A DNA stretch of 64,000 nt from Azonexus sp. (GTDB lineage: Bacteria > Pseudomonadota > Gammaproteobacteria > Burkholderiales > Rhodocyclaceae). Under the pieces are notes generated by a model. That model was given only the letters and a program-made list of their open reading frames with translations. It was not told the origin of the DNA and did not search any database. Of this stretch, positions 2,233 through 38,173 are shown in pieces (the first letter of the stretch is position 1; the number at the start of each line of letters is the position of its first letter). The stretch covers positions 1 to 64,000 of the forward strand of contig JAUYEI010000027.1 of the NCBI GenBank assembly GCA_030691385.1, written 5' to 3'. The position numbers and the translations under genes are program-made.

Positions 2233-3216
2233 ATGCGCCATCCCAAAGCTGTTCTTTTTGCCGGCGAAAAGCCCTTCCCTATCCTGCCCGCGGTCGACCA
2301 TTACGCCGGCTCGGAAAAGCCGATGCGGAAAGCCCTGCAGTTGCAGAAGGAACTGGGGCCGATTTTCGACATTACCTGCGATTGCGAGGATGGCGCCCAT
2401 GCCGGCGCCGAGCGCGAGCATGCTGAAATGGCGGCTGGCGTAATCATGAGTAGCGACAACCGTTTCAATCGGGTTGGCGCACGCGTCCATGACGTAACCC
2501 ATCCGCACTGGCGGCAGGATATGGAAATCCTGGTCGGCATTGCTGGCAGCAGACTCCCGTTCATCACCCTGCCCAAACCCTGCAGCGCCGGCGATGTTCT
2601 AGTGCAGATCGAGGCACTACGTGAAATTGAGCAGAATTTTGGCGTCGACCGCAGGATTCCGGTCCATGTGCTGATCGAAACCCATGGTGCCTTGCGCGAA
2701 GTCTGGGAAATTGCTGCTTTACCCGGTGTCGAGAGCCTGGATTTCGGCCTGATGGATTTCGTCTCGGGTCACCATGGCGCCATTCCCGGCAGTGCGATGA
2801 AGAGTCCCGGCCAGTTTGATCACCCGCTGGTCGCCCGCGCCAAGTGCGAGATCAGCGCCGCGGCACTGGCCTGCGGTGTGGTTCCGTCGCATAACGTGAC
2901 CACCGAACTGAAGGACATCGACACCATCCGCAATGATGCCCGGCGCGCCCGGACCGAATTCGGCTACCTGCGCATGTGGAGCATCCACCCGAACCAGATC
3001 GTGCCCATCGTCGAAGCCATGCGCCCGGACTTCTCCGAGGTTCAGGCCGCCGCCGAGATCCTGATTGCTGCCCAGGACAAGGACTGGGGGCCGATCCAGC
3101 ATGAAGGCAAGTTGCACGACCGGGCCTCCTACCGCTATTACTGGGAGTTGCTCGACCGCGCCCACGTCACCGGGATGGACATTCCGGCTGCTGCAAGGAT
3201 TCGCTTTTTTGCCTGA
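2233..3216 (+). CDS. HpcH/HpaI (CitE-like) CoA ester lyase/aldolase
   Basis: The 327-aa protein belongs to the citrate lyase beta-subunit-like branch of the HpcH/HpaI aldolase family, Mg-dependent TIM-barrel enzymes that cleave or form malyl-CoA-type thioesters. Characteristic pieces are FDITCDCEDGAHAG (metal-binding acidic segment), IPVHVLIETHGALREV with the family's Glu, and LDFGLMDFVSGHHG. The C-terminal region (RMWSIHPNQIVPIVEAM) is the usual CitE-like lid. It follows mdh after a terminator. The stop codon overlaps the proposed TTG start of truC. The exact substrate cannot be read from sequence; a malyl-CoA or citramalyl-CoA lyase-type activity is the best guess. Confidence 0.88.
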   Translation: MRHPKAVLFAGEKPFPILPAVDHYAGSEKPMRKALQLQKELGPIFDITCDCEDGAHAGAEREHAEMAAGVIMSSDNRFNRVGARVHDVTHPHWRQDMEILVGIAGSRLPFITLPKPCSAGDVLVQIEALREIEQNFGVDRRIPVHVLIETHGALREVWEIAALPGVESLDFGLMDFVSGHHGAIPGSAMKSPGQFDHPLVARAKCEISAAALACGVVPSHNVTTELKDIDTIRNDARRARTEFGYLRMWSIHPNQIVPIVEAMRPDFSEVQAAAEILIAAQDKDWGPIQHEGKLHDRASYRYYWELLDRAHVTGMDIPAAARIRFFA

Positions 3217-13810: not shown

Positions 13811-13977
13811 TTAAGCTGCCATTCTATTTGCATAGCACTGCTGACTGAACGCGGCAGGTGACTGATAGCCAAGTCGTGCCGGCTTGCGGATGCGGTTGTA
13901 GAAGATCTCGATGTATTCGGTGATCTCCAGCTTTGCCTCCTCGCGAGTGGCAAAGCATCGGTGATGAACCAGTTCGT
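13811..13977 (-). pseudogene. C-terminal fragment of an IS3-family transposase (OrfB)
   Basis: About 55 codons ending in TAA at 13811 read ELVHHRCFATREEAKLEI, then EYIEIFYNRIRKPARLGYQ and a SPAAF-type end. This is the C-terminal end of the integrase core of IS3-family OrfB proteins. The rest of the transposase is missing: upstream of 13978 the sequence is unrelated. A short open frame ending in REKASGVP on the same strand (about 13985-14075) could be the tail of another lost gene. Confidence 0.8.
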
Positions 13978-14064
13978 TTTTTCAGGGAACCCCAGAAGCT
14001 TTTTCTCTGCGGGCACGGGCCAGATCAAGTCGCAGGCGCCGGGCCAGGGGGGCATCGCCATAAT

Positions 14065-14179
14065 CCTTGAGACCTCGGTTGGACGTGGCAGATGGTGCGC
14101 CTGGGCGGGATGGCCGGCGCGAAGCAACGCCGCAGCAGGCTCATGCCGGCAAGATGGAGCGACAAAGCCGGGTGCCCGA
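14065..14179. mobile_element. Truncated copy of the 235-bp MITE
   Basis: CCTTGAGACCTCGGTTGG and the following 100 bp match the inverse orientation of the 235-bp element at 37939-38173, with a few substitutions, and similarity stops near GGGTGCCCGA. Only one terminus is present, so it is an older, truncated copy. It lies in the 640-bp gene-poor mosaic between 13580 and 14245, which also holds the IS3 fragment. Confidence 0.75.
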
Positions 14180-14244
14180 GATCAAGAAAATCCAATTTCA
14201 CACCGGCTGAAATCAGCCGGTTTCAGGTTGGCCGCGACAAGCGC

Positions 14245-14478
14245 TCAATTCGGCACCTTCTGCCAGCCTTTCGCCTGCATGCAGGCATGCATCCGGCGCA
14301 CGCTGGCATTGGTGACCACGCCGTCGGCGCTGGTATAGACCTGCTGCTTGCAGAAAATCTCGTCGCGCCTGTACTCGCCGTCGAGCGCCCCGCGCTTTTC
14401 CCAGTGCCACGACGAACAGCCCGCCAGGCCAATAAAGGCAATGATTAATAATCCTTGAAACCTCAGTTGACCGCTCAT
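14245..14478 (-). CDS. Small lipoprotein with a MITE inserted in its signal sequence
   Basis: The downstream part encodes LLIIAFIGLAGCSSWHW and then about 55 soluble residues with two further Cys (FCKQQVY, HACMQAKGW): a lipoprotein signal with lipobox LAGC. A 235-bp MITE (14453-14687) with ATAAT duplications splits the signal. Removing the element and one duplication restores ATG AAA TTA TTA ATC, giving MKLLIIAFIGLAGC, a normal 70-aa lipoprotein starting at 14697. The insertion (240 bp) keeps the frame, so the original ATG still reads through to the stop (150 aa). An ATG inside the element at 14478 instead gives MSGQLRFQG joined to LLIIAFIGLAGC, a functional-looking signal of 77 aa total; I list that version. 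Function of the lipoprotein is unknown. Confidence 0.7.
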   Translation of the reverse strand: MSGQLRFQGLLIIAFIGLAGCSSWHWEKRGALDGEYRRDEIFCKQQVYTSADGVVTNASVRRMHACMQAKGWQKVPN

Positions 14479-14687
14479 CCATGTCTGGTCTGCCGCGTGA
14501 ATACGGGCTCCCATGCCTTCGAGGCCATTCACCCGTTGGCTGACAGTGCTACACGGCCGCTGGCACGCTTGCTCGGGCGTCCGGCTTTGTCGCTCCTTCT
14601 TGCCGGCATGAGCCTGCCGCGGCGTCGCTTCGCGCCACCCATCCCGCCCAGGCGCATCACCAGCCACGTCCAACTGAGGTTTCAAGG
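14453..14687. mobile_element. 235-bp MITE, copy 1, inside a lipoprotein gene
   Basis: Perfect 17-bp terminal inverted repeats CCTTGAAACCTCAGTTG / CAACTGAGGTTTCAAGG bound a 235-bp element with a 5-bp target duplication ATAAT (14448-14452 and 14688-14692). It has no transposase, but its minus strand is open throughout in the frame of the host gene. An equally long copy lies at 37939-38173, and a truncated one at 14065-14179. Confidence 0.9.
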
Positions 14688-14781
14688 ATAATTTCATGGC
14701 GCAAATTCTACGCTGATCGTCGCAAAGCCACCCTCGCCGCACCACGCAACTGATTATTCATAACCAACTTTTAATTTAATA

Positions 14782-14799
14782 TTTATTCTGTAGAATAAA
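14782..14799. promoter_or_regulatory. Inverted repeat, probable antitoxin operator
   Basis: TTTATTC-TGTA-GAATAAA is a perfect 7-bp inverted repeat 24 bp before the antitoxin start, in an AT-rich promoter region. Xre-type antitoxins of RES systems bind such repeats to repress their own operon. Confidence 0.6.
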
Positions 14800-14823
14800 A
14801 CAAGACCATCAGGAAACACCATC

Positions 14824-15207
14824 ATGCCGACCGCCCTGCAAGCCAACCCGCTCTCCGAACGCTCCCGCGTGTTGTCGACGGCCGTGGTTGAAGCTGCCAG
14901 ACGCCTCGGCCTGGGTTCCACCGATCTCAACGCCATTATCGGCACGAGCCAGCCCTCGGCCTCGCGCCTGCTCAACGGCAAGTACTTCATCCCGGAAGGC
15001 AGCAAGACCTGGGAGTTGTCGGCTCATTTCGTCCGCCTTTATCGGTCGATTTCCTCGCTGGTCGGCGGCAACGACGATCTGGCCCGGAGCTGGCTCAAGT
15101 CCGGCAACCAGGCTTTCGACAACCGCCACCCGCTGGATGTCGTCAAACGCGTCGAAGGTCTGCTCCATGTCTGCGAATACCTGGACGCCCACCGCGCTCG
15201 CGTCTGA
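14824..15207 (+). CDS. Xre/MbcA/ParS-type antitoxin (DUF2384)
   Basis: The 127-aa protein has an N-terminal HTH (ARRLGLGSTDLNAIIGTSQPSASRLL in parts, residues 25-50) and a C-terminal toxin-binding domain containing FVRLYRSISSLVGGNDDLARSWL and GLLHVCEYLDAHRARV, the DUF2384 pattern. Such antitoxins neutralise RES-domain toxins by covering their active site. It overlaps the toxin gene by 41 nt. The palindrome at 14782-14799 fits autoregulation. Confidence 0.92.
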   Translation: MPTALQANPLSERSRVLSTAVVEAARRLGLGSTDLNAIIGTSQPSASRLLNGKYFIPEGSKTWELSAHFVRLYRSISSLVGGNDDLARSWLKSGNQAFDNRHPLDVVKRVEGLLHVCEYLDAHRARV

Positions 15208-15898
15208 AGCCCGGCACTGGTCGGGCAAGGGCTGGCGCGCCGTCGAGGCGCTGCACCGGGTGGCGACGATGACGCTGGTGCACGGCGATCTCGACGAGCA
15301 GTCGCTGCTCGAAGACATTCTCGAAGAAGCCAAGCCCGTCCTGCCGCGCGAAACCAGCGGCCTGCACTGGCTGCTCGCCACGCCCTTCCGCTACTGGCCG
15401 AAACCACCATCCGGCTCGCGCTGCCGGGCGCGCACCGATCCTGGCGTGTTCTACGGTGCCGATGAGGAAAAGACTGCCTGCGCCGAATGCGGCTACTGGC
15501 GCCTGCGTTTCTGGCTGGACAGCGAAGGTCTGGCCGGCCGCGAAGCGTCGATCCCGATCACGCTTTTCGAATTCCACGGGGCCACGCCCCAGATGCTCGA
15601 CCTGACCGCGCCGCCACTCGTCGCCGACCACGCCAGATGGACCGATCCGGTCGACTACGGCGCCACCCAGAAGATCGCCGGCACGGCGCGGCAAGCCGGC
15701 ATCCAGTTGATCCGCTATCAGTCCGTCCGTCACCCCGCAGGCCATTGTCTGGCCATCCTGACGCCACAGGTATTCAAGGGCGTCGACGAGGCTTTCCGCA
15801 ATGTCCAGCACGGCTGGACGCTGTGGCTCAAGCCGCCCGGACTGACCGTCTGGCAGCGCGAACTGAGGCCGGAAAGCCACGTTTTTCGGTTCGCCTGA
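15167..15898 (+). CDS. RES-domain toxin (NAD+ phosphorylase/glycohydrolase type)
   Basis: The protein is about 243 aa. RES family features include the N-terminal WRAVEALHRVATMTLV, the RES core LLATPFRYWPKPPSGSRCRA, PGVFYGADEEKTACAECGYWRLRF and the C-terminal LIRYQSVRHPAGHCLAIL; conserved Arg, Tyr and Glu residues bind NAD. RES toxins deplete cellular NAD. The ATG at 15167 lies within the antitoxin gene and gives the expected length; an upstream extension to 14888 would read the antitoxin gene in another frame. Length is slightly above many single-domain RES proteins because of an N-terminal segment. The pair is a standard type II Xre-RES module. Confidence 0.9.
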   Translation: MSANTWTPTALASEARHWSGKGWRAVEALHRVATMTLVHGDLDEQSLLEDILEEAKPVLPRETSGLHWLLATPFRYWPKPPSGSRCRARTDPGVFYGADEEKTACAECGYWRLRFWLDSEGLAGREASIPITLFEFHGATPQMLDLTAPPLVADHARWTDPVDYGATQKIAGTARQAGIQLIRYQSVRHPAGHCLAILTPQVFKGVDEAFRNVQHGWTLWLKPPGLTVWQRELRPESHVFRFA

Positions 15899-37938: not shown

Positions 37939-38173
37939 CCCTGAAACCTCAGTTGACCGCTCATCCATGTCTGGTCTGCCGCGTGAATACGGGCTCCCCT
38001 GCCTTCGATGCCATTCACCCGTTGGGTGACAGCGCTACGCGGCCGCTGGCACGCCTGGTCGGGCGCCCGGCTTGGTCGCTTCTCCTTGCAGGCATGAGCC
38101 TGCTGCGTCGTCGCTTCGCGCCGGCCATCCCGCCCAGGCGCACCATCTGCCACGTCCAACTGAGGTTTCAAGG
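37939..38173. mobile_element. 235-bp MITE, copy 2
   Basis: Same length as copy 1 and about 90% identical by eye. Ends CCCTGAAACCTCAGTTG and CAACTGAGGTTTCAAGG, with a 5-bp duplication TTCAA (37934-37938 and 38174-38178). It is inserted at the very end of the hepT-like gene: that gene's stop codon (38175-38177) lies in the duplication. The minus strand is again open across the element. Confidence 0.9.

Follow-up and report, generated by a model that had tools for sequence, protein, structure and literature searches.

A MITE inserted in frame just past the start of a small lipoprotein gene in Azonexus sp.

Structure of the Locus

The window considered here, that is, the whole stretch of 64,000 nucleotides of Azonexus sp. 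DNA that was analysed, contains on its minus strand a small lipoprotein gene into which a small mobile DNA element has entered in frame, just past the start. The element is a MITE located after codon 3 of the gene and bounded at both ends (14453-14687) by the exact 17-bp repeat CCTTGAAACCTCAGTTG; the coordinates of all features are listed in Table 1. Together with one copy of the target-site duplication it amounts to 240 bp, and 150 codons stay open up to the stop ending at 14245. The reading frame survives because 235 + 5 = 240 and because the element family, as it happens, has few stops in this register.

An earlier sequence-only reading of this DNA had described a MITE lying in frame within a lipoprotein signal, and the 17-bp repeats, the ATAAT duplication and the open frame were all found. 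It had also proposed a 240-bp insertion through which the original start still reads, as is indeed the case for 150 codons from the original ATG. Its statement that the element is free of stops in this frame holds for this copy, but only for 31 of the 41 copies compared. Likewise, the in-frame ATG that it had placed within the terminal repeat exists (14478-14476) but lies 6 bp inward of the 17-bp repeat; the sequence agrees with the proposed fusion of MSGQLRFQG, read from this ATG, to the hydrophobic core and the lipobox.

Table 1. Positions of the inserted gene, the element and associated features in the window.
Feature	Position	Strand	Basis or remark
Lipoprotein gene in its present form	14245..14697	-	150-codon frame from original ATG through element to stop; translation without internal stop
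Original ATG	14695..14697	-	Intact and in frame
Target-site duplication ATAAT, copy on the gene's 5' side	14688..14692	.	Direct repeat
Target-site duplication ATAAT, second copy	14448..14452	.	Direct repeat
MITE, 235 bp, in the gene's orientation	14453..14687	-	Exact terminal repeats and family copies
17-bp terminal inverted repeat, one end	14671..14687	-	0 mismatches
17-bp terminal inverted repeat, other end	14453..14469	+	0 mismatches
Element-internal ATG, in frame with the gene (MSGQLRFQG...)	14476..14478	-	Transcript position 220
Remaining lipoprotein gene: hydrophobic core, lipobox LAGC, mature domain	14248..14451	-	Sequence, alignment
Second element of this family, truncated, 3' of the gene	14065..14180	+	Repeat at 14065-14081, 2 mismatches
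TAGAAT, putative -10 box of a leaderless promoter	14705..14710	-	7 nt before original ATG

As regards the neighbourhood, a divergent Xre/MbcA/ParS-type antitoxin gene was recognised within 14824-15898 (PF09722, E=8.5e-13). The ORF at 15167-15898, after the antitoxin gene, may be, as a guess, a RES-type partner; it has no NCBIfam match. Upstream of the antitoxin gene a perfect palindrome, TTTATTCT-GT-AGAATAAA, occupies 14782-14799 and has similar counterparts at two other loci (L033 and L036), so that it is a candidate operator. On the minus strand at 13823-13990 there is a remnant reading TREEAKLEITEYIEIFYNRIRKPARLGYQSPAAFSQQC, which we take to resemble the end of an IS3-family transposase.

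Empty Site and Relatives of the Gene

An empty site was found in a Rhodocyclaceae MAG (VIKE01000014.1, locus L119), where the flanks are colinear at 90-91% identity. Identity is 90.2% over window positions 15906-14689 and 91.1% over 14452-14239, and exactly 240 bp find no counterpart: positions 3006-3009 of the locus are common to both alignments, and the insertion therefore measures 240 bp. The joining of the gene to an unrelated piece by assembly is ruled out by these colinear flanks. The proteins of close relatives start MKLLMIAFIGLAGC, MKLLMIAFIGLAAC or MKFLMIAFIGLAGC, that of VIKE01000014.1 being of the MKLLMIAFIGLAGC type. The expectation that removing the element and one ATAAT would restore a continuous ORF was thus upheld by the N termini of the relatives, and the suggested search for element-free relatives yielded, in VIKE01000014.1, an empty site with the N terminus as reconstructed.

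Protein relatives occur in 28 of the 35 congeners searched, whereas the 24 genomes from other families have none (29 of 60 genomes when the own genome is included), and the gene is single-copy in its own genome. When 26 sequences are aligned, all 16 invariant residues are present in that of the window. The relatives, although short, display the bacterial lipoprotein layout of n-region, core and lipobox cysteine, with the cysteine at position 14 or near it. Pfam and NCBIfam searches with the lipoprotein returned 0 families, and a plasmid comparison gave no match. At window positions 14440-14447, beside the insertion, codons 4-5 depart from all five close relatives at 3 of their 6 bases; the figure for the aligned flank is 19 of 214 (P=0.011). 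One of the three changes creates the ATTAT target.

The Element Family

Matches to the terminal repeat with at most 3 mismatches number 226 in the genome, against 3 for a reversed control pattern, by which a chance repeat is ruled out. This count suggests that the elements in the genome number about a hundred and come in several lengths; paired ends were found at 195, 234, 235, 274 and 283 bp. The copies compared are the best 40 of 167 candidates plus one neighbour, 41 in all and not a random sample; the scored candidates (best 40 of 167) gave 40 near full-length copies and one fragment. A length of exactly 235 bp is found in 36/41 copies. The family is short and multicopy, with terminal inverted repeats and a target-site duplication, as expected of a MITE, and the element is too short to encode a transposase. 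A full-length transposase partner was not found: the IS1380-type gene at L111 is without such ends, and no mate was seen in 14 of the 20 stretches inspected, 7 of these being cut by contig ends. Matches to the family occur in 15 of 60 genomes, the own genome included, with a best identity of 81% outside the own genome.

An exact 5-bp duplication flanks 20 of the 41 copies, all fitting WTNAW, and 78 of 82 flanks fit this motif; the others deviate at positions 1, 3 or 5, with the exception of one odd copy (L099). Half of the copies at L001-L030 and L090-L099 have flanking 5-mers that do not match each other; even so, the two sides are nearly always WTNAW and, L099 aside, they differ at positions 1, 3 or 5 only, T2 and A4 being constant. 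Recombination between elements accounts for some of these unequal flanks, but not for the 10 copies in which the middle base agrees and a single W differs.

Other copies were also noted. Downstream of the gene, an 81-nt arm (14100-14180) of the truncated second element is 91% complementary to the full element, while a second full copy lies in the window at 37939-38173 with a TTGAA duplication. Elsewhere, the element at L090 adjoins a gene whose apparent TTG start falls within the duplication, and that at L097 interrupts a membrane-protein gene (LrgA/CidA-like by eye) with a stop within the element. Codon usage proved an unreliable guide to which frames around the 41 copies are genes and which are antisense; next to L096, a frame of 499 codons has a codon-usage score of 0.17, but there is a gene-like frame on the opposite strand.

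Original Start and Putative Promoter

The gene is probably leaderless, judging from the stretch before its original start. The window sequence at 14695-14711, GTAGAATTTGCGCCATG, contains TAGAAT, and GTARAAT stands 7 nt before the ATG in 10 of twelve named relatives, drawn from genome contigs, and 6 nt before it in one; the twelfth (L129) has no TARAAT box at its presumed start, nor has any of three more distant relatives inspected (L037, L038 and L039). A Shine-Dalgarno core is absent from the stretch before the start in 12/12 named relatives. The layout of a leaderless gene, namely a -10-like box and no Shine-Dalgarno core, is hence found in the window and in 11 of the 12. In the genome, GTARAAT-N7-ATG occurs 8 times against 0 for a reversed control, although these are pattern matches and not necessarily gene starts. 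A plain sigma-70-like promoter scan of 14200-14850 gave 0 sites and recognised no -35 box, so that the promoter call depends on the conserved -10-like box and its spacing. As described in the literature, a TANNNT box about 12 bp upstream marks bacterial leaderless genes, which are reported in only 9 of 71 beta-proteobacterial genomes (PMC3160421).

Coding Constraint and Age of the Insertion

The frame used here is stop-free in 31/41 copies and the reverse frame in 36/41. By comparison with a star simulation, which ignores shared ancestry, open frames are in excess (31 against 20.2 expected, and 35 against 26.0, of 36 copies). Stop-making singletons in the element frame number 2 against 2.05 expected and distinct stop-making changes 4 against 4.03, and by this lack of depletion the possibility that the element was selected to encode a protein is rejected; among 12 stop-depletion tests, one (reverse frame 0) gave P=0.02. 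This copy differs from its subfamily consensus at 19 positions, 6 of them private, and 17 of the 19 differences change an amino acid in this frame, so there is no sign of constraint at the protein level.

With the 6 private changes in 235 bp as a guide to age, the chance of finding no stop is 0.60, and 0.34-0.06 when indels are assumed at 5-20% of substitutions. The intactness of the gene therefore proves little (P 0.06-0.60). In the host part, the gene's own lineage shows 4 silent and 3 amino-acid-changing codons, the five relatives 21 and 9 (P=0.66; P=0.42 by hand count), so that constraint after the insertion cannot be demonstrated; nothing here favours either continued or lost selection on the inserted gene. 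Both the open-frame chances and these codon counts would suit a gene that is dead and decaying, its open frame being a leftover of a young insertion. We regard this as improbable, given that the promoter box, the start and the frame are intact, that none of the 16 family-invariant residues has been lost, and that the gene is retained in 28 of the 35 congeners searched.

Expression and Fate of the Inserted Gene

According to the sequence-only reading, the host gene acquires a new start from the element, and it is possible that the element ATG serves in this way. Ribosomes starting there (14478) would make a 77-residue lipoprotein beginning MSGQLRFQGLLIIAFIGLAGC, the element replacing the start and rescuing the gene. 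Such a product has the cysteine at position 21 and retains R6, the hydrophobic core, the lipobox and the family-invariant residues. By a PROSITE-style lipoprotein-signal rule it passes, whereas the 150-residue form fails because its cysteine is at 94. Moreover, in the predicted fold of an mRNA beginning at the original AUG, the bases of the element ATG are unpaired (0.96/0.91/0.95) and those of the original AUG partly paired (unpaired 0.46/0.25/0.18); to this extent the fold favours the earlier proposal. On the other hand, the element ATG has neither a Shine-Dalgarno core nor a TARAAT box 6-8 nt upstream, a strong terminal-repeat stem is predicted to begin about 9 nt after it, and an out-of-frame ATG lies 4 nt upstream (ORF 14213-14482). 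It is also an ordinary family variant, present in 15/41 copies (ATA in 25, GTA in 1), and was not made for this gene. With the original ATG intact, in frame and still preceded by the conserved box, a replacement start is unsupported as the main mechanism, and we consider it unlikely. An ATG beside a lipobox is insufficient for claiming that a start has been replaced, since in a gene that is leaderless the old AUG should win.

The explanation we prefer, with about even confidence, is that the MITE sits in a probably leaderless gene whose old AUG is still used, and that the gene has most likely suffered damage or else depends on a minor internal start. The target taken by this non-autonomous transposable element was ATTAT on the gene strand, after codon 3. 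RNA polymerase would still start at or next to the original ATG, because TAGAAT lies 7 nt before it, and as the window retains this box the mRNA should still begin with the old AUG. Ribosomes would then begin there as before and read through the element, and the 150-residue product would have its signal core buried at residues 83-94. With the core so placed, export and lipidation would probably be weakened or lost, which makes damage to the gene the most likely outcome, if it does not live on a minor internal start. Several points speak against this explanation: the negative sigma-70 scan, the boxless L129, L037, L038 and L039, the rarity of leaderless genes in beta-proteobacteria, the partly paired old AUG next to an open new ATG, and the excess of open frames in the star simulation. 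The retention of all 16 invariant residues also fits a working protein.

Two further readings were considered. In one, the 150-residue product would still be exported, the buried core acting as an internal signal and the lipobox being cleaved; in its favour, the frame is open and neither core nor lipobox has changed, but 82 residues precede the core and none of the aligned sequences has such an n-region. The n-region of an ordinary lipoprotein is far shorter than 82 residues, and we hold this reading to be highly improbable. In the other, which appears decidedly unlikely, two products would be made: the old 5' AUG would yield a 150-residue intracellular form and the element ATG a 77-residue lipoprotein. 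A mobile element would then have turned a single-start gene into a dual-localisation gene. As a natural experiment, the locus is well suited to comparing leaderless with internal initiation and to gauging the n-region length that a lipoprotein signal tolerates.

Comparison With Known Systems

Literature searches for MITE-supplied start codons, leaderless lipoprotein-gene insertions and MITEs in Dechloromonas returned nothing on point. Fusions of MITEs to genes in frame are established for the RPEs of Rickettsia and for ERIC/RU in enterobacteria (PMC10969869, PMC2229807, PMC2759123). The Rickettsia palindromic elements are described in these sources as small in-frame repeats within protein genes that are read through (Ogata et al., 2000; PMC10969869, PMC2229807), and the present element resembles them in being a small repeat inserted in frame and read through. 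In the same accounts RPE families are frequent in coding genes, whereas here one case was recognised among 41 copies, orthologs having been compared for this copy alone. Moreover, unlike in coding repeats of the RPE kind, no selection against stops was found in this element. With respect to the leaderless bacterial genes of PMC3160421, the likeness lies in the TARAAT 6-7 nt before the ATG and the missing Shine-Dalgarno core; the present call differs in being made from sequence, with no -35 recognised.

The closest parallel is the Yersinia RU-2 element, which, in the cited descriptions, provides residues 1-30 of YPO1552 as well as part of its predicted signal peptide (Delihas, 2007, PMC2759123; PMC2229807). 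There, as here, a MITE-like element is fused in frame to the gene of an exported protein that has element-free relatives. According to the same descriptions, the YPO1552 locus shows conservation among strains, and its annotated start comes from the element; in the present case, by contrast, the element lies downstream of the original start and its putative promoter, both of which persist, and the empty site can be aligned to the base. In-frame fusions of MITEs, with one that provides the start of a predicted signal peptide among them, were thus already published in 2007, and the present case is a fresh, clean instance: an example, legible base by base, of a MITE that enters a coding sequence with the frame unbroken and with the empty site present in close relatives. 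What appears unusual among such fusions is that the probable original promoter, together with the original start, still stands upstream of the element.
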